Shown: one piece after another, positions 7,011 to 38,191 of the stretch
How the letters are laid out: each line of letters begins with the position of its first letter
Numbering within the stretch: position 1 is the first letter of the stretch
NCBI GenBank assembly: GCA_013003065.1
Contig: JABDLI010000064.1
Span: 1-38,332, forward strand
Length of the DNA: 38,332 nucleotides
Source of the DNA: Phycisphaerales bacterium
GTDB lineage: Bacteria > Planctomycetota > Phycisphaerae > Phycisphaerales > SM1A02
Reading direction: 5' to 3'
Translations under genes and position numbers: made by a program
The notes under the pieces: model-generated
The model's database searches: none
What the model was told of the DNA's origin: nothing
Seen by the model: only the letters and a program-made list of their open reading frames with translations

Positions 7011-7136
7011 CACGGGCGCGGACACGGACACGGACACGGACACGGACACGGCCGCGGACGCGGACACGGACACGGACGCGGTCGCGGTCGCGGACACGGA
7101 CGCGGGCGCGGGCACGGTCGCGGACGCGGTCGCGGG
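7011..7136. repeat. Hexanucleotide array C[A/G]CGGN, 21 units
   Basis: Twenty-one consecutive hexamers with no phase slip. Positions 1 and 3-5 (C, C, G, G) are invariant; position 2 is A or G and position 6 varies (mostly A). CACGGA and CGCGGA dominate. It fills most of the spacer between the FG-GAP gene stop (7151) and the GT2 start (6991). Translation in any frame gives TRTRTR, GHGHGH or SVSVSV runs, which create the odd Arg-rich stretch of the spurious 1286-aa plus-strand ORF. Confidence 0.93.
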
Positions 7137-7150
7137 CACCCCGGATCCGC

Positions 7151-10570: not shown

Positions 10571-10573
10571 AGG

Positions 10574-10663
10574 AGAATTGGATTTGGAATGGGAATGGGA
10601 ATGGGAAGGGGAAGTGGAATTGGAATGGGAATTGGAATGGGAAGGCGAAGTGGAATTGGACCC
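10574..10663. repeat. Purine-rich hexamer array GGAA[T/G][G/T]
   Basis: Fifteen hexamers in fixed phase; GGAATG, GGAATT, GGAAGG and GGAAGT account for twelve of the core units. Strongly strand-asymmetric (G and A on plus, C and T on minus) and locally much lower in GC than the surroundings. Irregular GGA-rich sequence continues to about 10700. Confidence 0.85.
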
Positions 10664-28066: not shown

Positions 28067-30064
28067 TCACGATCGGCGGGGAGTCCAGTGCGCGGGCAAC
28101 GACCGCTCCTTGAAGTGCGGGTCCTTCTTGAACGCGTCTCGCATGGCGGCGGCGTGTTCGAGGCGGGAGGATGGAATGTCGGCCGCGGCTCGCGGCAAGT
28201 CCAGTTCGTCGAGCAGGTCGCCCACGATCGCCTCGAACGCCACCACGTCGTCGCTCGCCATGTCGGTGCGCCAGTCGCGAATGCCGGCCGTCACCGGTCG
28301 CCACGCCCGCTTCGCCGAGAGCGTCGGGTCGTCCTTGGTCTTCCCCACGTGGAACGAGACCATGGCGTCGTCGAACGGGATTCCCAGGAATCCGCACAGC
28401 GATCGCATCGCGGCCTCCGGGTCGGTGACGAGCGATTCGTACCGGACTTCGTGGTAGAGGTCCGGACCAAGACGCTCCCCCGCTTCCCGGCCGAGCCGAA
28501 CGAAACGCTCCCACCACAACGCGGCCGTCGAGACGCGGTCCCGTTCCCAGGTGCCGTACCGGCCCGCGGTCCGGTGCGCCCGATCCCAGTCGAGCACGGA
28601 AAGACACACGTCGCGGCCGTCGCGGATGAGATGAACGAACTTCGCCTGCGGCCACTGCTCGTTGAGCAGCGGCATGGACTGAACGTAGCCGGGTGTCTTG
28701 TCGCCGACGAGCGACTTCCCGTGGCGGCGGCCGAACCCGTCGAAGATCCGCGTGACGAATTCCGCGTACGGCATCGTCGCGCCGGCGGGAACGAGGGCCC
28801 GCACGTCTTCGGGCTCCAGCCGCAGATTGGCGAACTTGGGATACTCGAGCAGCCGTTCGGGCAGCTCGCTCGTCGCAAGCCCCTCCGGCGTGACCCCCAC
28901 CCGTTTGCGAAAGAACCGCGGGATCCAGTGCGTCTCCGGCGTGATCGCGAGATCCGGGTGCGCGTCGGCCATGCGTTTGAGGAGCGTCGTGCCCGAACGC
29001 GGACAGCCGACGATGAAGACGAACGGGTTGCGGCTCGTCCGCGTCGGGGACGGGGCGACGCGGGCGGCACGGCCGGTCGCCGGCGTTTCGTCGTCGTCGT
29101 CGCCGAGCGGGGTCGCCTCGACGTGCTCACGCCACCACTGGCGGCACGCTTCGGCCTCGACCGCGACCGACGAACAGTCGGCGACGCCCCGCGGGTAGCC
29201 GAACGCGTCGAGCGCATCCCCGGCCAGGGCATCGAAGAGGGCCAGATCGCGTTCCGACATCTGCGAGCGCCAGTCCCGCAGCCCTTGGGTCGGCGGCAGC
29301 CAGGCAGCCTTCGCGGAACGCCCCGGCTTGACGCGGGTCTTTCCTTCGTGGAAAGCGGCCATCTCGGGGGCGTCCGGCAGACCGAGGAACGCCGCCAGAT
29401 CCCGCATCGTCGCGACGGGGTCTTCCACCATCGTCTCGTACCGGACGACACGCGTGAGACCCGAGTCGATGCCCGCCGCCCCGTCCCGGCCGGCGAGCAC
29501 GTCGCGTCGCCACCAGAGCGCGCACACGGCCACGGGCTCGCGTTCGAAGAGCTCGAGCTTGGCCGCCCCCTTGCCCCAGTCCATGATGGACAACGCCACG
29601 TCCCGCCCGTCCCGAACGAGATGGATGATCCGCGCCCAGGGGAACAATGCGTTCAGATGCGGCAGATGCCGGCAGTACCCGGGACTCTTCTCTCCGGCAA
29701 ACGGCTTGCCGTGCTGCTGCGCGAACGCTTCGTACACGCCGCACACGAACTCGGCGTACGTCTCGGATCGATCCGCCGCCGCCCGGACCGCCGCCTCCGG
29801 CAACCCCAGCCGCGCGAAACGCGCGAATCCGACCACGCGATCGACGAGCCGCGGCGTCAAGGGCGGGTCGACACCGACCGCCAGCCGCTTGATCGGACGC
29901 GGAATGAACTGCGAGTCGTAGCCAACGGCAAGCTCGGGGTGATGGTCGAGCATGCGTTGCAGCAGCGTCGTGCCCGACCGCTGGCAGCCAACGACGAACA
30001 AGTACGGATTGCGGCGTCGCGTCTGCTCGTGACTCGGATTGATCTTGGTGTCGAGGGACGTCAT
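28067..30064 (-). CDS. Tandem double-domain sulfotransferase
   Basis: 665-aa protein made of two complete PAPS-dependent sulfotransferase domains. Domain 1 (about 18-300) has the 5'-phosphosulfate loop VGCQRSGTTLLQRML and the 3'-phosphate motif IIHLVRDGRDVALSIMDW. Domain 2 (about 346-640) has VGCPRSGTTLLKRM and FVHLIRDGRDVCLSVLDW. Both end with the same WR..T.GIRDWR/GLRDWR block and PRG/PRA tail, so this is an internal duplication. The linker (about 300-345) is acidic then Arg/Pro-rich. Both domains keep the cofactor residues. No signal peptide, so cytoplasmic. Acceptor may be a saccharide or a protein tyrosine; the nearby glycosyltransferase operon favours a saccharide. ATG 30064 lacks a Shine-Dalgarno. 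Confidence 0.9.
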   Translation of the reverse strand: MTSLDTKINPSHEQTRRRNPYLFVVGCQRSGTTLLQRMLDHHPELAVGYDSQFIPRPIKRLAVGVDPPLTPRLVDRVVGFARFARLGLPEAAVRAAADRSETYAEFVCGVYEAFAQQHGKPFAGEKSPGYCRHLPHLNALFPWARIIHLVRDGRDVALSIMDWGKGAAKLELFEREPVAVCALWWRRDVLAGRDGAAGIDSGLTRVVRYETMVEDPVATMRDLAAFLGLPDAPEMAAFHEGKTRVKPGRSAKAAWLPPTQGLRDWRSQMSERDLALFDALAGDALDAFGYPRGVADCSSVAVEAEACRQWWREHVEATPLGDDDDETPATGRAARVAPSPTRTSRNPFVFIVGCPRSGTTLLKRMADAHPDLAITPETHWIPRFFRKRVGVTPEGLATSELPERLLEYPKFANLRLEPEDVRALVPAGATMPYAEFVTRIFDGFGRRHGKSLVGDKTPGYVQSMPLLNEQWPQAKFVHLIRDGRDVCLSVLDWDRAHRTAGRYGTWERDRVSTAALWWERFVRLGREAGERLGPDLYHEVRYESLVTDPEAAMRSLCGFLGIPFDDAMVSFHVGKTKDDPTLSAKRAWRPVTAGIRDWRTDMASDDVVAFEAIVGDLLDELDLPRAAADIPSSRLEHAAAMRDAFKKDPHFKERSLPAHWTPRRS

Positions 30065-30135: not shown

Positions 30136-32121
30136 CTAGGGGCACCCGCCTCCGGTCCCACCCCAGTTGCTGATGAGCGACAGCAGATCGCTGAAGCCGA
30201 CCGTGCCATCGCCATTGATGTCGGCCGCGCACGGGCCCTTGGCGGGACAATCGCCCCACGCCGAAAGCAGAATGAGGAGGTCGTTGAAGCCGACCGATCC
30301 GTCGCCGTCGACGTCGCCGATGACGCTGCCTCCATCGCCGGTGATCATGAGGCGAACCGCTCCCGCCTCGTAGGTGACCTCGACGTTCTCGGGCGCGGTC
30401 ACCGTCGCAAACGTGCCGGCGACCGATGCCGCCGTCAGCACGAGGAACTCCTGCCCACAGGTCGGCTCCGATCCGGCGTCGAACGCGACATCGAGCGCGC
30501 CGTTCAGCGTCGCGGCACCGGTGACGGCGACGGCGTCCCCGCCCGTGCTGGCGAGCGTGACCTCGATCCGGCCGCCGGCGACTTGCGCGAATACGCCGTC
30601 GATCGACAGCACGCCGTCGGGTCGAAGGATGCCCCCGCTGGTCACGCTGCCCTGCAACGTGCCGTGCCCCGCGGCGACGCCCTGGGTACCGATCGTGATG
30701 AAGAGCGCCGACGCCGTCGCGCTGTCGATGAGCTGCAGCGTGCCGGCCCCGAGGTCGGCGACTGTGAGCTGCTGCGTGAAGTCGAACGACGATCCGGCGC
30801 CGCTCACCACCACAGTGCCATTCGCACCGGGATCGTCACCGATCGTGCCGAGCAGGCCGGCGACCGTGCCGCCGGCGGAGATGTTCAAGGTGCCGAGTCC
30901 GAAGTTGCCCACGAAGATCTCGACCGAGTCGGTCCAGCTCGCGGTGGGGCCGATCACGTCGACGGTACCGGTGGAGCCACGCTCGTCGGCGATCTTGACG
31001 CGGCTGGTCGTCAACGTCCCGCCGTTCGTCGCGGTGAGGGTGCCGACGCCGTTGTTCCCGACGAAGAGCTCCGCGTCCACGGTGAGGGAGGAGCCCGCCC
31101 CGTCGATCAACACGCTCCCGGTCGAGCCCAACTCGTCGCCGATGCGGCTGACCGACTCCCAGGTGACGCTGCCCCCGGAGCGAATCTCCAGGTCACCGTC
31201 GCCGAAGTTGCCGAGAAACGTCGTGCCGGTGTCGGTCCACGTCGCGCCCGCGCCCTCCACCACCAACGAACCGGAGGAACCGATGTCATCGGCCACGAAC
31301 GAGCCGCTTGTCGTGAGCGTGCCGCCGGCATCGACCGTCACCGTACCCGTGCCGCCGTTGCCGACCGACAGCGCTGCGTTCACGGTGAGCGCGCTGCCGG
31401 CCCCACTGACCGTGACCACGCCCGTGGAGCCGAAATCGTCGCCGAGCCGCACGGGCTGCTGGCACTCGGCGACGCCCGCGGCGGAAACCGCCAGCGTGCC
31501 GTCACCGGCGTTGCCGACGAACACGGCGTCCTGACTCGTCCAGGTCGAGCCCGCATCGCGGACCCGGACCAGACCGGTCGAACCGAGGTCGTCGGCGATA
31601 AAGACCCGAGCGGTCGTCGCATCGCCTCCGTTCTCGATCGTGAGCGTGCCGGCGCCGGCGTCGCCCGCGATAAGCGAGTCGGTGGCGGTCAGCGTCCCGC
31701 CGGCGTCGATCGTCAACTCCCCGATCGCGCCGAATTGCTTGCCGATCCGAGCGAACAGCGACGGCACGACCGCGAGAGCGCCACCGGAGATGATCAGCTC
31801 TGCGTCGTCCCCGTCCCCGTCGCCGACGGTGACTCCATTGACGGTGTAGGTCTGGCCGGCGAGCGTGAACGTCGTGACCTTGTCGACGACAACCGCCTGC
31901 TCGCTCGCGGCGACGCCGCCGAACGTGATGTCGAGGTCGACGCCCAGATCGAAGATTGCCGTGTCGAGGGTCCCGGGCACGCCAACGGGCGACCAGTTGC
32001 CGCTCGCGTGGAAGCTGCCGCCGCCATCCGTGATCCAGACGCGATCGACGCCGCCGGCGGAGACACTTCCGGCGAGAGCCGCAACCAGGACGAGCGCGTC
32101 GGGGAGGTGGCGATCGGGCAT
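30136..32121 (-). CDS. Secreted T5SS/PEP-CTERM-type repeat protein with dockerin-like end
   Basis: 661-aa exported protein. A signal peptide (cleavage likely near SVSA-GG) is followed by ITDGGGSFHASGNWSPVGVPG, the usual opening of such proteins. Seven repeats of about 50 residues (126-476) then follow, with core GSTG.V.V.GAGS........VGN.G.GTL....GG, the 'T5SS/PEP-CTERM-associated' beta-helix repeat. An autotransporter-like segment (GTLQGSVTSGGILRPDGVLSIDG) comes next. Two dockerin-like EF-hand repeats (GDVDGDGSVGFNDLLILLSAWG, ADINGDGTVGFSDLLSLISNWGG) close the protein; there is no beta-barrel and no PEP-CTERM anchor. AGGAGA lies 6-7 nt before ATG 32121. It diverges from the TpsB gene. Likely a surface or matrix protein. 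Confidence 0.88.
   Translation of the reverse strand: MPDRHLPDALVLVAALAGSVSAGGVDRVWITDGGGSFHASGNWSPVGVPGTLDTAIFDLGVDLDITFGGVAASEQAVVVDKVTTFTLAGQTYTVNGVTVGDGDGDDAELIISGGALAVVPSLFARIGKQFGAIGELTIDAGGTLTATDSLIAGDAGAGTLTIENGGDATTARVFIADDLGSTGLVRVRDAGSTWTSQDAVFVGNAGDGTLAVSAAGVAECQQPVRLGDDFGSTGVVTVSGAGSALTVNAALSVGNGGTGTVTVDAGGTLTTSGSFVADDIGSSGSLVVEGAGATWTDTGTTFLGNFGDGDLEIRSGGSVTWESVSRIGDELGSTGSVLIDGAGSSLTVDAELFVGNNGVGTLTATNGGTLTTSRVKIADERGSTGTVDVIGPTASWTDSVEIFVGNFGLGTLNISAGGTVAGLLGTIGDDPGANGTVVVSGAGSSFDFTQQLTVADLGAGTLQLIDSATASALFITIGTQGVAAGHGTLQGSVTSGGILRPDGVLSIDGVFAQVAGGRIEVTLASTGGDAVAVTGAATLNGALDVAFDAGSEPTCGQEFLVLTAASVAGTFATVTAPENVEVTYEAGAVRLMITGDGGSVIGDVDGDGSVGFNDLLILLSAWGDCPAKGPCAADINGDGTVGFSDLLSLISNWGGTGGGCP
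30694..31746 (-). repeat. Seven coding repeats of about 150 bp (beta-helix units)
   Basis: Units of 49, 51, 50, 51, 50, 50 and 50 codons, each starting IGD(D/E)xGSTG or IADxxGSTG. After a divergent first unit, units alternate between an A form (DAGSTWTSQDAVFVGN, GAGATWTDTG, PTASWTDSV) and a B form (GAGSALTVNAALSVGN, GAGSSLTVDA), giving a roughly 100-residue higher-order period. Confidence 0.8.
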
Positions 32122-32327: not shown

Positions 32328-34265
32328 ATGACGATGCCAGCGAACGCGATGCGAACGGCGGCTGCGGCCGCCGCGTGGCTCTTGATCGCCCTCGGATCGC
32401 CCGCCGCCACCGCGTCACAAGACGCCCTGCCCTCTCCCGCGATCCCGCCGGCGCACGCAGACGATGGCCCCGCCTACCCGGTCAGCGTCTTCAACCTCCG
32501 CTACCTGCACCAGGGGCACCCGGGGCACCCGAAGCGGCAGACGCTGCTCGACGTCGCCGTCACGCTCGGACGAACCTCCACCGGCTTCGTCACACCGCGG
32601 CCGGACACGCCGACCGTGACCTTCCGCCTCGCGGAGGTCGCCGACCGTCCGCTCGAACACTACCACGCGAGCGCGTTGCAGACGGTGCTCGCCCGCGTGC
32701 GTGACACGCTCGCCGCCGAGGGCCTCATCGGTCTCTACGTCGCGCCGGATCCCACGCAGATCACTCCCACGGGTCGGGATGAGCGTCCCGCCGGGCGGAC
32801 CGCGTTGCGTCTGATCATTACGACCGCGCTCGTCACCGACGTCCGCACGCTCGCGTCGGGCGAGCGGATCGACGCCGCGGATCGGCTCGATCACCCCCTC
32901 CACCGCCGACTCGCCGCGCGGTCACCGTTCGCGTCGTTCGACGAGGAGCGGGGAGATCGCCGCGACCGGGCTGACCTCCTGAACGGCGATCGGCTCGACG
33001 CTTTCTTGCGGCGTCAGAGCCGACACCCCGGCCGACGCGTGGACGCCGCGTTGTCGCCCGGCGCCGATCCGGGCACGGTCACGCTCGACTACCTGATCAC
33101 CGAGAACGATCCGCTCGTCCTCTACGCCCAGATCTCCAACACGGGGACCGCGAGCACCGGCCGGCTGCTCGAACGCTTCGGCCTCGTTCACAACCAGATC
33201 TCGAGCCGCGACGACATCCTGGCGATCGACTACGTGACGCACTCATTCGATGAGGTCAACGCCGTCACCGGGTCGTACGAGGCGCCGTTCCTCGGACTCG
33301 AGCGACTGCGGTGGCGGGTGGCGGGAAGCTGGAGCGAGTTCACGGCGTCCCAGCTCGGTTTCTTTCGGGACATCTTCACCGGCACGTCCTTCACGATCGG
33401 CGGCGAGCTGATCGCCAACGTCCACCAGGACGGCAACCTGTTCGTCGACCTCGTCGCGGGTCTCCGACGCGATCGCGAGCGGGTGGACAACGAGCTGCTC
33501 GGGCTGCGGGGCGAGCAGGACTTCGACATCGCCCACGTCGGCGTGCGTTTCGAACGGGAGGAGAAGTGGTACCAACTCGCCGGCGCGCTCACGGCGGAGT
33601 GGAACGACGGACAGGATCCGCAGCCCGACCCGACGCAGCTCAACCGGCTCGGGCGGCTGTTCCCCGATCCGAACTTCGGGATCATCCGGTGGGACTTCGG
33701 CGGCTCGGTCTATCTGGAGCCGCTCTTCGATCGCGTCGCGTGGGAGGACCCGAGCACGCCGGAGTCATCCACGCTGGCGCACGAGCTGGTGGTGGGCTTC
33801 CGCGGTCAATACGCTTTCGACAACCGGCTCGTCCCCCAGTTCGAGCAGGTCATCGGCGGTTTTCGATCGGTGCGGGGTTACCCCGAGTCCGCCGCGGCCG
33901 GCGACAGCGTGATCATCGGCAGCGTGGAGTACCGCTACCACCTGCCCCGCGCCCTCGCGATCGAGCCCACGCCCGCCGAGCTGTTCGGAAAGCCCTTTCG
34001 CGTCGCCCCGCAGAATGTCTACGGCCGGCCGGACTGGGATCTCATCCTGCGGGCTTTCTGTGATGTTGGACGGACGTTCATCAACGACGCGCTGCCGTTC
34101 GAGGCGGAAGAGACTTTCATCGGCGCCGGAATCGGCATCGAGCTCCTCGTACAACGCAATTTGAACCTGCGGGTGGACTGGGGGTTCGCCCTGAAGGACG
34201 GCAACGCGGCCGACGTCTCGGCGGGATCGAATCGGGCATCGTTCGTCGCGACGCTTTTCTTTTGA
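32328..34265 (+). CDS. Two-partner secretion outer-membrane transporter (TpsB; FhaC/ShlB type)
   Basis: About 645 aa. A signal peptide (MRTAAAAAAWLLIALGSPAATAS) is followed by a region with POTRA-like pattern (about 40-230), then PGTVTLDYLITENDPLVLYAQISNTGTASTG, the classic entry into the TpsB barrel. The barrel ends RASFVATLFF with terminal Phe. GGFRSVRGYPESAAAGDS carries the VRGY motif of the plug loop L6, conserved in Omp85/TpsB proteins. FhaC-type proteins are about 550-600 aa, so this one is slightly long. The ORF starts with TTG 32319; ATG 32328, 32334 or 32349 are all possible and none has a Shine-Dalgarno. Its TpsA partner begins 50 bp downstream. Confidence 0.9.
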   Translation: MTMPANAMRTAAAAAAWLLIALGSPAATASQDALPSPAIPPAHADDGPAYPVSVFNLRYLHQGHPGHPKRQTLLDVAVTLGRTSTGFVTPRPDTPTVTFRLAEVADRPLEHYHASALQTVLARVRDTLAAEGLIGLYVAPDPTQITPTGRDERPAGRTALRLIITTALVTDVRTLASGERIDAADRLDHPLHRRLAARSPFASFDEERGDRRDRADLLNGDRLDAFLRRQSRHPGRRVDAALSPGADPGTVTLDYLITENDPLVLYAQISNTGTASTGRLLERFGLVHNQISSRDDILAIDYVTHSFDEVNAVTGSYEAPFLGLERLRWRVAGSWSEFTASQLGFFRDIFTGTSFTIGGELIANVHQDGNLFVDLVAGLRRDRERVDNELLGLRGEQDFDIAHVGVRFEREEKWYQLAGALTAEWNDGQDPQPDPTQLNRLGRLFPDPNFGIIRWDFGGSVYLEPLFDRVAWEDPSTPESSTLAHELVVGFRGQYAFDNRLVPQFEQVIGGFRSVRGYPESAAAGDSVIIGSVEYRYHLPRALAIEPTPAELFGKPFRVAPQNVYGRPDWDLILRAFCDVGRTFINDALPFEAEETFIGAGIGIELLVQRNLNLRVDWGFALKDGNAADVSAGSNRASFVATLFF

Positions 34266-34283
34266 TCGCGGCCCGCCCCGCGT

Positions 34284-34289
34284 CATACT
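34284..34289 (+). promoter_or_regulatory. Possible -10 box upstream of tpsA
   Basis: CATACT between the tpsB stop and the tpsA ATG, giving a leader of about 20 nt with GGAG at 34301-34304. Weak; tpsA may simply be co-transcribed with tpsB. Confidence 0.25.
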
Positions 34290-34315
34290 CGACGGAGTCC
34301 GGAGATCGACCCCCC

Positions 34316-37300
34316 ATGAAACCCCTGCTTCATCTCGCAGCGACGATCGCCGCCTCGGCCGCGGCATTACTCGGCCGACCGGCGTCCGGGCAATCGCTTC
34401 CGAGCGGCGCGGACACCGACTGCGCCGACGTGACGGTCGACGGCCACACGATGACGATCACGCAGCTCACGCCCGGGTGCATCATCGACTGGGCCGCCTT
34501 CGGTATCGGCGGTGGCTACGCGGTCGAGTTCATCCAGGGCGATGCGTGGCGGGTGCTCAACCGGGTCTCGGGGGCCGACGCATCGGAGATCGCCGGCGTC
34601 TTGAACGCGTCGGGCACGGTGTACTTGGTCAACCCCGCCGGCGTCGTCTTCACCGGCTCCGCCGTCGTCAACGTCGGCGGGCTCTACGCCGCGGCCGCGT
34701 CGCTCACCGACGACGATTTCGCCGCCGGCATCGATCGGTTCACGAACCCGACGGACAAAGTCGTCAACCAGGGCTCGATCACGGCGTCGGCCGTTCACCT
34801 GATCGGTGACCGGATCGCCAACTTCGGTGAGATCTCCGCCGGGGACGGCGTGGTCACGTTGCTCGCGGGCGAGAACGAGGTGTTCATCGGCGAGGCCGAC
34901 GGTCGGGTGCTCGTTCGCATCGACGGCGTCGAACTCCGGGACGACACGAGCGTCGCAACGGGACCGGCCGTCCCCACCACCGCCGGGCTGGCCGGCGTCG
35001 AGAACAGCGGTACGATCGACGCCGCGGGTGGAGAGGTCATTCTGGGTGTGGGCGACATGTACGCGCTGGCGATCCGCAGCGCGGGCACCATCAACGCGGC
35101 CGGCGGATCAACCCAGCTCGCCGCCCTCGGCGGCACCGTGCACCATCGGGGAGCACTGCAGACCGGCACGCTCAACGTCACGGGTGAAGCGATCTTTCTC
35201 GAGTCGGACATCCACGCCGACACTGCGCGTTTCAACGATCCCGTCATCATCGGCGCCGACGTCCGCATCGACGGGGAGGACGGGGATGCGGCCGACAGCG
35301 TGCACTTCGCGTCCACCGTCGACGACGCGGACGATGCCACGCACCGACTGGAGATCGACGCAACGCAGAGCACGTTCGACGGAGATGTCGGTGGCGAGCG
35401 CCGGCTTCACACGCTCGAGACAACGGGCGGGGCGACGATCGCCGGCGATGTCGACACGGCCGCGGGCATCGTCGTCGGCGGCTCCGCGCTGCTCACCGGG
35501 TCGGAGACGCAGACGCTGGATGCGGGCGCCGGGCATCTCCAGATCGGTGGCAACGCGAGCAAGGTCACCGGCGGCGACCTCGTTCTCCGCGCCAGCGACA
35601 CCGTGGCCGTCGGCGGAACCGTCAGCGTGACCTTCGGATCGGTGACCGTGGACGGCGATGCGGTGATCGGCGGCGACGTGACGGCCGGCACCGACGTCAT
35701 GGTGACCGGAGCGGCCGACATCGACGGCGACGCGTTGGCCGGCCGCGACGTGATCATCGACGGCGACGCGACGCTCGCCGGCGACGTGCTGGCGGGCCGC
35801 GACCTGACGCTCGGGGGCGACACGACGCTCGACGGCAGCAGCGCCCAGGCGATGCGGGCCAGCACCGGCCGCATCGACGCGAGCGGCGACATCCGGAAGA
35901 TCGGAGGCGGGACCCTGCTCGTGCAGGCCGCCGACGCGATCGACGTTGGCGGCGACGTCACCGTGGCCACCACGAGCGGCAGCGGCAACCTGAGCCTCGC
36001 CGCCCCGGTCATGGCGATCGGCGGAGACGTCAGCGCGACCGGCACCGTCCTCACCAGTGGCGCTCTCGACGTCGGCGGCAATCTCAGTGCCGGCGTCGAC
36101 GCACGTCTGAACGGCGATGCCATCGTGGGCGGCAGCGTCACGACGGGCGACGACGCGCTCTTTTTCGGTGCGGCGAACGTCGGCGGCGACGTCACGGCCA
36201 ACGGCGACGTGACGTTCGCGGGGTTGACCGCGGTCATCGGCAGCGTCGACGCCGGCTCCGATGCGAGCTTCTCCGGCACCACGACGGTCGCCGGCGACGT
36301 GAGCGCCGGCCGCGACGTCGAGTTCGCCGCGGACGCCACCATCGGCGGGAGCGTTCACGCCGGCGACGATGCCATCTTTTTCGGCGCCGCCGACGTGGGC
36401 GGCAACGTCACCGCCATCGCCGACGCCGAATTCTCGGGCGCTGCCGTCATCGGCGGCGACGTGACCACCGGCGAGGACCTGGACTTCCTGGGCGCGGCCG
36501 ACATCGGCGGCAACGTCGCGGCGGGCGAGGACGTGATCTTCTCGTCCGCGGCCGACGTCGGGGGCGATGTCGCGGCGGGCGATGACGCCACGTTCTTCGG
36601 CGCCGCCTCCATCGGCGGTTCGCTGAACACCATCGGCGACATCGAATTCCACCGTGTGGCGGAGGTGGGCGGGTCGGTCTCGGCGGGAGAGGACGTCGAT
36701 TTCTTCGACGATGCCGTCGTGGGCGGCGACATCGTCACGGGTGACGATGTCCTCTTCGCCGCCGGCGCCGACATCGGCGGCAGCATCACGGCGTTCGATG
36801 ACGTGGAGTTCTTCGACGACGCCACCGTGGGAGGGAGCATCACGGCCGGTGACGACATTCAGTTCTTCGGCGAAGCCGAGGTCGACGGCGATCTCGTCGC
36901 GGGTGACGACGTCGAGTTCGCCCAGCGGGCGTTGCTCGGTGGCAGCATCACCGCGTACGACGACGTGAAGTTCGACGGCCCGGCTGTCTTTCTCGGTACG
37001 GGCACCCAGCGCATCGAGGCGGTGACCGGCGTGCTCCGCGCCCGTGGCGTGATCCGGAAGACGACCGCCGGCACGCTGGAGCTGTTCGGCCCGAGGCTCA
37101 TCCTCAACGGCGGCGAGGTCACGGCGCTCGACGACGTGCTTCTCAATCCCGCCGGCCGCGTCGTCCCATCGCCGGTCGCCACGATCACCGCGCAGTCCAA
37201 CCTGATCATCCGTTCCGAGCTGGGCCACGTGCGAATGGGCGCCGGGGAGAAGCTCGCCGTCCAGGGCGACCTGACGATCGAGGCCGGCGGCACCGCCACG

Positions 37301-38191
37301 CTCGGCGATGTGAGCACGCGTGGCGACATGACGGTGCTCGCGCAGGAGATCGTCCTGCTCCGCCGCGCGGCGGCGAGCGTCCTCGATGCCGGTGGATCGC
37401 TCGTGCCCGACGACGGCGTGGACTACGTCGCCGGGGGCCGGTTCTTCTTCAGCGTGATCCCCTCCCTCGGCGGCGGCGGCCCCACGCCGGTCTTCGGTTC
37501 ACGACGCGTCGATGCGGACGCCCTGGGCACGCTCGGCGCTTTCCGGCTGCGGATCATCGTGCCGTTCGGCAACGACCTGTTCCGTTCCGGCGACACGCTC
37601 CTCGATCTGCGGGCCACCGGCCCGACCGTGAGCGATCTCGCCGTCGCGTACTCCGCCGGCGCTGGTGACCCGGCCGCCGGGCGACGCGTCCGCACGGCGG
37701 CCACGGATGCTGCGTCCGCGCAGGCCAGCCTCCAGCCGCTGGGCGTCGCGGTGCGTGCGCTCGACCCCGCCGCCCCGACATCGATCGTCGATGATCTGCC
37801 GGCCAGCGCCGAGTGGGCGACGGCATCACCGAGCCTCTCCGTTCTTCGGCTCGATGCGGACGCCGTGACCGCCGTGGTCGACGCGTACACCGCCCTGCTG
37901 GGAACGCCGGCGGAGGCGGCATCCGCCCGCGCGGCACTCGACGCGGCCTGGGCCGCCTACCGACGCACCGAGCCTTCGCCCGACGGGCCGGGCTTCCGCC
38001 GTTTCGTGACCAACCCCGCTCACGCCGACGCCGCGGCGACGCTCGACCGATTGGCGACGCTCTCGCGGGCCATGCTGGTGATGGGCGCGAACCAGACCGA
38101 GATGATCTCGGCCCGCCGCCGGCTGCTCCGGGTGTTGCGGCCCGAGGCGATACGCCGGCGTGATCTGGAGACCGCAATCGACGCCGGTTGA
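34316..38191 (+). CDS. Two-partner secretion exoprotein (TpsA; filamentous-haemagglutinin type)
   Basis: 1291 aa. Signal peptide MKPLLHLAATIAASAAALLGRPASGQ; then the TPS domain that TpsB recognises: ITQLTPGCIIDWAAFGIGGGYAVEFIQ, RVSGADASEIAGVLNASGTVYLVNPAGVVFTGSAVVNVGGLYAA (the NPAG form of the usual NPNG motif). A beta-helix core follows (about 150-1080), including three (451-504) and then eighteen (568-891) 18-residue repeats of consensus [IV]GG[DSN]VxAGDDxxFFGAAD, very acidic. The C-terminus (about 1130-1291) turns helical (TAVVDAYTALLGTPAEAASARAALDAAW) with no barrel, lipobox or sorting signal. The track start (34262) overlaps tpsB; ATG 34316 fits the signal peptide. Likely a surface-released or tethered adhesin; cargo role beyond adhesion unknown. 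Confidence 0.92.
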   Translation: MKPLLHLAATIAASAAALLGRPASGQSLPSGADTDCADVTVDGHTMTITQLTPGCIIDWAAFGIGGGYAVEFIQGDAWRVLNRVSGADASEIAGVLNASGTVYLVNPAGVVFTGSAVVNVGGLYAAAASLTDDDFAAGIDRFTNPTDKVVNQGSITASAVHLIGDRIANFGEISAGDGVVTLLAGENEVFIGEADGRVLVRIDGVELRDDTSVATGPAVPTTAGLAGVENSGTIDAAGGEVILGVGDMYALAIRSAGTINAAGGSTQLAALGGTVHHRGALQTGTLNVTGEAIFLESDIHADTARFNDPVIIGADVRIDGEDGDAADSVHFASTVDDADDATHRLEIDATQSTFDGDVGGERRLHTLETTGGATIAGDVDTAAGIVVGGSALLTGSETQTLDAGAGHLQIGGNASKVTGGDLVLRASDTVAVGGTVSVTFGSVTVDGDAVIGGDVTAGTDVMVTGAADIDGDALAGRDVIIDGDATLAGDVLAGRDLTLGGDTTLDGSSAQAMRASTGRIDASGDIRKIGGGTLLVQAADAIDVGGDVTVATTSGSGNLSLAAPVMAIGGDVSATGTVLTSGALDVGGNLSAGVDARLNGDAIVGGSVTTGDDALFFGAANVGGDVTANGDVTFAGLTAVIGSVDAGSDASFSGTTTVAGDVSAGRDVEFAADATIGGSVHAGDDAIFFGAADVGGNVTAIADAEFSGAAVIGGDVTTGEDLDFLGAADIGGNVAAGEDVIFSSAADVGGDVAAGDDATFFGAASIGGSLNTIGDIEFHRVAEVGGSVSAGEDVDFFDDAVVGGDIVTGDDVLFAAGADIGGSITAFDDVEFFDDATVGGSITAGDDIQFFGEAEVDGDLVAGDDVEFAQRALLGGSITAYDDVKFDGPAVFLGTGTQRIEAVTGVLRARGVIRKTTAGTLELFGPRLILNGGEVTALDDVLLNPAGRVVPSPVATITAQSNLIIRSELGHVRMGAGEKLAVQGDLTIEAGGTATLGDVSTRGDMTVLAQEIVLLRRAAASVLDAGGSLVPDDGVDYVAGGRFFFSVIPSLGGGGPTPVFGSRRVDADALGTLGAFRLRIIVPFGNDLFRSGDTLLDLRATGPTVSDLAVAYSAGAGDPAAGRRVRTAATDAASAQASLQPLGVAVRALDPAAPTSIVDDLPASAEWATASPSLSVLRLDADAVTAVVDAYTALLGTPAEAASARAALDAAWAAYRRTEPSPDGPGFRRFVTNPAHADAAATLDRLATLSRAMLVMGANQTEMISARRRLLRVLRPEAIRRRDLETAIDAG
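35666..35827 (+). repeat. Three 54-bp coding repeats in tpsA (first block)
   Basis: IGGDVTAGTDVMVTGAAD, IDGDALAGRDVIIDGDAT, LAGDVLAGRDLTLGGDTT. Same 18-residue unit as the large block, separated from it by about 190 bp that contain related but out-of-phase beta-helix turns. Confidence 0.85.
36017..36988 (+). repeat. Eighteen uninterrupted 54-bp coding repeats in tpsA
   Basis: Eighteen copies of an 18-codon unit with no length variation. Examples are IGGSVHAGDDAIFFGAAD, VGGNVTAIADAEFSGAAV, VGGDVAAGDDATFFGAAS and VGGSITAGDDIQFFGEAE. Each unit should be one coil of a beta-helix. The GDD/GED positions create an acidic ladder along one face, which could bind divalent cations or basic partners. 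Confidence 0.92.

Follow-up and report, generated by a model that had tools for sequence, protein, structure and literature searches.

The way in which planctomycete cells keep very long exoproteins on their surface is the question raised in the present study by a pair of genes, tpsB and tpsA, in a 38,332-bp stretch of DNA (hereafter the window) from a Phycisphaerales bacterium. The window spans the full length of contig C159 (GenBank JABDLI010000064.1) in a draft genome with 385 contigs. The two genes encode an outer-membrane transporter, TpsB, and a predicted secreted exoprotein, TpsA, and are best read as an ordinary type Vb, or two-partner secretion (TPS), pair with a lineage-specific tail. 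A complete pair with its genes 50 bp apart had been proposed in a first-pass annotation that was made from the letters of the DNA; both reading frames and their coordinates (Table 1) were confirmed, and the products matched PF03865 and PF05860. The new element is not the pair itself, and lies in the module that forms the tail of TpsA and in the clean split of the constant ends of this protein from a stalk that changes freely between them.

Conserved C-terminal module of TpsA

Homologues of TpsA align with it over the TPS domain and over residues ~928-1291, and differ in the middle of the protein. The helical C-terminal end is the most conserved part of the family outside the TPS domain, and also its most informative feature. 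It had been described in the first-pass annotation as 160 helical residues that were not recognised, which still stands, but this segment is a conserved module of approximately 185 residues and is not unique to TpsA. No Pfam family convincingly recognised the module in any of its 27 members (best single E-value 0.0038), and a PDB search with the C-terminal profile returned chance-level matches only, with E-values of at least 0.066.

Between the conserved ends, one stalk can stand in for another. Relatives have repeats with a length of 59, 75, or 94 residues at this position, and Gly/Asn/Ser or poly-Pro linkers replace the stalk in four loci (L083, L086, L087, and L158), in which the module stays. 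Another exoprotein end in the host genome (L197 3-1382, on contig C370) shows approximately 40 consecutive Asp residues followed by two copies of the module, an arrangement that may have been affected by the collapse of repeats in the assembly. The module also occurs in short genes that follow tpsB in L083 (10268-11224) and L084 (10189-11079); these have a signal-peptide-like start and a CHxPPGNP segment ahead of the module, and no TPS domain. The ratio of nonsynonymous to synonymous substitutions (dN/dS) between these two loci was 0.32 for the module-only gene versus 0.22 for tpsB; since the former value indicates purifying selection, the module-only gene looks functional.

The module was found in 54 of the 298 genomes sampled from the class, and 50 of these were among the 57 genomes that carry the same type of TpsB as the host (Fisher test, 3e-44). 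A reliable match was obtained in none of the 24 genomes with a second, diverged type of TpsB, and outside the class the module was present in only two genomes of the phylum sample. The count of 54 was derived from 60 genomes with a match, from which six matches weaker than 1e-5 were dropped. Three of the six were M16 peptidases (G552, G609, and G636), which we judged to be false because their open reading frames look, in our reading, like peptidases and only a 60-residue helical stretch aligns; the remaining three were other matches weaker than the same threshold.

The constancy of the tail amid a changing rod points to a common means by which such rods are kept on the cell. Because the module stays constant while its passenger changes, it should act on something that is constant as well, whether transporter or envelope. 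Its conservation under a rebuilt passenger makes the module a marker of the family in genomes, and it may be deleted or moved experimentally.

TpsB transporter

TpsB matched ShlB (PF03865) at 3.9e-6 in a Pfam search, above the cut-off, and its AlphaFold2 model, with a mean predicted local distance difference test (pLDDT) score of 85.8, shows a barrel of 16 strands, preceded by an N-terminal region that is compatible with two POTRA domains. A sequence search of the PDB with the TpsB profile gave no match at 0.01, whereas a fold search with the model did, the best PDB folds being those of FhaC (2e-23) and then CdiB (1.4e-21), ahead of TamA and BamA. One of the best-conserved stretches of the transporter is the VRGYPES motif, which we take to be the counterpart of the L6 loop motif that Omp85/TpsB proteins share. 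Judging from its modelled fold, the protein is a genuine TpsB.

The pair resembles FHA/FhaC and HMW1/HMW1B in the adjacency of tpsB and tpsA, the N-terminal TPS domain of the exoprotein, the predicted 16-stranded TpsB with a POTRA-like region, and the predicted beta-helical passenger (PMC3297439). It differs from them in that TpsA carries an undescribed C-terminal helical module without cysteines and a strict array of acidic 18-residue repeats.

Repeat array of TpsA

Residues 568-891 of TpsA consist of 18 consecutive gap-free units of exactly 18 residues. The identity at a lag of 18 residues was 0.45 in this array, versus no more than 0.19 at any lag in 1000 shuffles, and the 18 strict 54-bp repeats listed in the first-pass annotation were thereby confirmed. 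Approximately four more units at residues ~445-506 had been missed, and the two arrays are split by an interruption of 61 residues. An acidic GDD/GED site had also been claimed for each unit, which was an overstatement, since 9 of the 18 units contain an exact G[DE]D. Position 10 of the unit is Asp in 17 of the 18, position 9 is acidic in 11 of the 18, and the array contains 59 acidic versus 5 basic residues.

The amino-acid identity between units is flat with distance (0.45 at a distance of 1, 0.50 at 3, and 0.46 at 8), and the fourfold synonymous sites of near units match at 0.49-0.58 versus 0.47 expected from codon usage. The near-random state of the synonymous sites from one unit to the next means that the array is old and that its units were not recently copied. 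The unit pattern is maintained by selection on the protein, and a fast change in unit number from strain to strain via slippage would not be expected.

Residues 440-1291 of TpsA were modelled with AlphaFold2 together with 14 related sequences, which gave a mean pLDDT of 82. In the model, a three-residue strand recurs every six residues, corresponding to three strands per 18-residue coil. One beta-helical coil per repeat, as initially predicted, was borne out in the form of a three-sided beta-helix over residues 568-891, most of which is modelled at a pLDDT of 94-98. According to our mapping from the repeat alignment and the model, the strands occupy unit positions 17-1, 5-7, and 11-13 and the turns positions 2-4, 8-10, and 14-16, and V1, V5, A7, V11, F13, and A17 would face inward. 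The acidic residues sit in the turns, their most regular column being the turn at 8-10, and could simply cap these turns.

In a related locus (L046 11-2227), one reading frame runs from a PrmC/HemK-like methyltransferase into a TpsA end that has the same acidic 18-residue units, either as a chimeric assembly or as a real fusion.

Distribution of TPS pairs in planctomycetes

Two-partner secretion had been regarded in the first-pass annotation as exceptional in a planctomycete, which was not supported by the genomes. A TPS domain was found in 36 of the 392 genomes sampled from the phylum, the TpsB profile matched 86 of the 298 genomes of the class sample, and the host genome itself contains three TpsB/TpsA pairs. 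When TpsB patterns were searched for in 84,980 species genomes, 204 relatives were obtained, and the genome titles were considered for the best 80 of these; all except four were titled planctomycetes, mostly Phycisphaerae. The four (L096, L098, L136, and L154) are close TpsB relatives, at 43-46% identity, in drafts titled Cyanobacteria, Acidimicrobiales, Proteobacteria, and Myxococcales, and may reflect mislabelled bins or transfer. A TPS reading frame follows tpsB in 67 of the 77 loci with room downstream; three other loci fail only through an overlapping open frame, and in two the TPS frame lies further downstream.

A survey of outer-membrane families names TPS for Proteobacteria and Chlorobi only (PMC4827864), and the one mention of Planctomycetes in another survey concerns the type I secretion system, not TPS (PMC4793230). 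In the literature that we searched, eight papers contain TPS together with planctomycetes, although never with the two terms paired in a title or abstract, and TPS was paired with Planctomycetota nowhere. Planctomycete TPS is under-reported in this literature, yet common in genomes.

Proposed mechanism and alternative explanations

We propose type Vb export of a TpsA rod in which the C-terminal module serves as the outer-membrane retention end, a reading to which we give slightly less than an even chance. Following the established TPS pathway (PMC3297439), Sec would take TpsA to the periplasm, in which the periplasmic part of TpsB would recognise the N-terminal TPS domain. The chain would then thread the TpsB barrel and fold outside the cell as a long, stiff, three-sided beta-helix, with its acidic residues stacked in the turns, and the rod would serve as a surface fibre. 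The stalk would be a lineage-specific spacer that may be freely rebuilt, and the helical module would form a compact bundle at or below the outer membrane, which keeps the rod attached. HMW1 is an earlier example of an exoprotein whose C-terminus stays in the periplasm, and the likeness is one of proposed job, namely, an exoprotein held at its C-terminal end (PMC3297439). The anchor of HMW1 is a disulphide-bonded loop, whereas the C-terminal region of TpsA has no cysteine, the only two in the protein being residues 36 and 55; a sequence relation between the two anchors was neither found nor expected. The module would do the job of this loop without cysteines, and if it does retain the rod, it would represent a second, cysteine-free solution to the problem known from HMW1. 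Since there is no known route through TpsB for a protein without a TPS domain, the product of the module-only gene should stay periplasmic, which favours retention from below. A wider claim, that the module is a new cysteine-free, passenger-independent retention domain which anchors the type Vb exoproteins of Phycisphaerae at the outer membrane, and that its stand-alone copies are periplasmic partners, is possible, although we would stop short of calling it probable.

Several points weigh against retention. Roles other than retention could keep the tail constant. The evidence for two POTRA domains in TpsB is the structural model, and the Pfam POTRA_2 profile did not match the protein. Common descent can also explain the co-occurrence of the module with one type of TpsB, since the bacterial families of the two TpsB-type groups do not overlap. 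A TPS frame is lacking in 5 of the 77 loci mentioned above, and L084 has tpsB and the module-only gene with no TPS gene within the 8 kb covered, which our model does not explain.

The module may instead be exported as a distal functional tip, in the form of a ligand- or matrix-binding head that is common to Phycisphaerae, and this is a serious rival even though we consider it rather doubtful. The C-terminus of FHA lies distal from the cell surface (PMC3297439), and a flexible linker precedes the module in several relatives. The host genome, in addition, has the module in duplicate, an arrangement often seen with binding heads. However, a head that faces varied targets is expected to vary, and the module is the constant part of the protein; moreover, the genes that encode the module without a TPS domain leave their products with no obvious exit through TpsB. 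Constancy also bears on whether the C-terminus is a toxin and the pair belongs to the contact-dependent inhibition or polymorphic toxin systems, for which CdiB, the second-best fold match of TpsB, may be cited. Such systems have a variable C-terminal toxin domain, whereas the C-terminus of TpsA is the end that is conserved across relatives and that occurs in tandem copies, and the module matched no toxin family in Pfam. The toxin reading was rejected on these grounds, and we regard it as highly improbable.

Regarding the stalk, the first-pass annotation suggested that the acidic ladder could bind calcium or magnesium, or contact basic partners, and the repeats may accordingly be viewed as an RTX-like beta-roll, the folding of which is driven by calcium outside the cell. 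The near-invariant Asp at position 10 and the large excess of acidic residues fit this view, as do the 18 residues per turn and acid-rich turns that the array shares with RTX beta-rolls. No PDB entry matched the TpsA model below 0.001 in a Foldseek search, and the weak best matches, with E-values of at least 0.04, included RsaA with bound calcium and an antifreeze protein that depends on calcium. The model of TpsA has three strands per 18 residues, whereas there are two in an RTX beta-roll; furthermore, the GGxGxDxU motif is absent from TpsA, no RTX family was matched by the array in Pfam at E-values up to 10, and an Asp in a turn can cap it without metal. We found no positive evidence for metal binding and rejected the RTX reading, and calcium-driven folding of the rod appears unlikely. 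We also hold it to be quite unlikely that the stalk is a captured bactofilin through which the rods polymerise end to end outside the cell. The isolated main array matched the bactofilin family (PF04519) at 3.7e-10, and at 4.4e-12 when the first array was included, both above the Pfam cut-off. This match was lost in six versions with permuted unit columns, and it therefore depends on the order of the residues, not on their composition; what is shared is the pattern of a three-sided beta-helix, and true bactofilins are present in the genome. Full-length TpsA, however, gave no bactofilin match at 0.1, and single stretches scored below the cut-off in a scan of the genome; because of these two results, we consider the array to be bactofilin-like in sequence and do not file it as a bactofilin. 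Bactofilins are small and cytoskeletal, whereas this array comprises 324 residues inside a predicted secreted TPS-domain protein of 1291 residues, and a long array of this kind has no obvious free end. Profiles of LpxA-type left-handed hexapeptide helices also match the array, weakly and far below their curated cut-offs, and share with it the six-residue strand spacing and the 18 residues per coil; a convergent hexad pattern is an equally likely source of the bactofilin match.

Features of the locus and neighbouring genes

The contig ends 141 bp past tpsA, too early for the window to show a downstream immunity gene of the kind expected in a toxin system. The borders of the periplasmic part of TpsB in Table 1 are those of our own reading.

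Table 1. Features of the tpsB-tpsA locus, in coordinates of the window.
Feature	Coordinates	Strand	Evidence
tpsB, outer-membrane transporter, 645 aa	32328..34265	+	PF03865 ShlB; 16-strand AlphaFold2 model; FhaC/CdiB folds
Predicted periplasmic part of TpsB, residues ~45-260, fitting two POTRA domains, the first of which would contain a hairpin insertion	32460..33107	+	Secondary structure of the model
Predicted 16-stranded barrel of TpsB, residues 263-645	33114..34262	+	Strands in the AlphaFold2 model
VRGYPES motif of TpsB, residues 515-521	33870..33890	+	Invariant or nearly invariant columns across 23 relatives
Gap of 50 bp, tpsB stop to tpsA start	34266..34315	+	Coordinates
tpsA, predicted secreted exoprotein, 1291 aa	34316..38191	+	PF05860 (5.5e-27); TIGR01901 (2.6e-18)
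Signal-peptide-like start of TpsA, MKPLLHLAATIAASAAALLGRPASGQ	34316..34393	+	Read directly from the sequence
TPS domain of TpsA (residues 32-267), which contains an NPAG motif	34409..35116	+	PF05860; TIGR01901
Short array ahead of the main one (residues ~445-506), with approximately four units of 18 residues	35648..35833	+	Sequence
Main array (residues 568-891), made up of 18 units of 54 bp, in which the turn at positions 8-10 is acidic	36017..36988	+	Sequence; model
Last segment of the beta-rich part (residues ~930-1104), conserved in relatives	37103..37627	+	Alignment A1, 15 relatives; predominantly strands in the model
Conserved C-terminal helical module, residues ~1110-1291	37643..38188	+	Alignment A4, 27 members; helices in the model

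The divergent neighbour of tpsB (30136-32121, minus strand) encodes a protein that looks secreted, carries seven T5SS/PEP-CTERM-associated repeats (TIGR04393, 4e-67), and has a type I dockerin at its C-terminus, and a single reading frame at 28067-30064 (minus strand) contains two sulfotransferase domains. The adjacency of the upstream dockerin, sulfotransferase, and porin genes to tpsB is not kept in relatives. Elsewhere in the window, six-base tandem repeats of the CGGACG and GAATGG types were noted at 7011-7139 and 10571-10660, in a region of plus-strand reading frames, and the repeat at 7011-7139 adjoins FG-GAP repeats on the minus strand.

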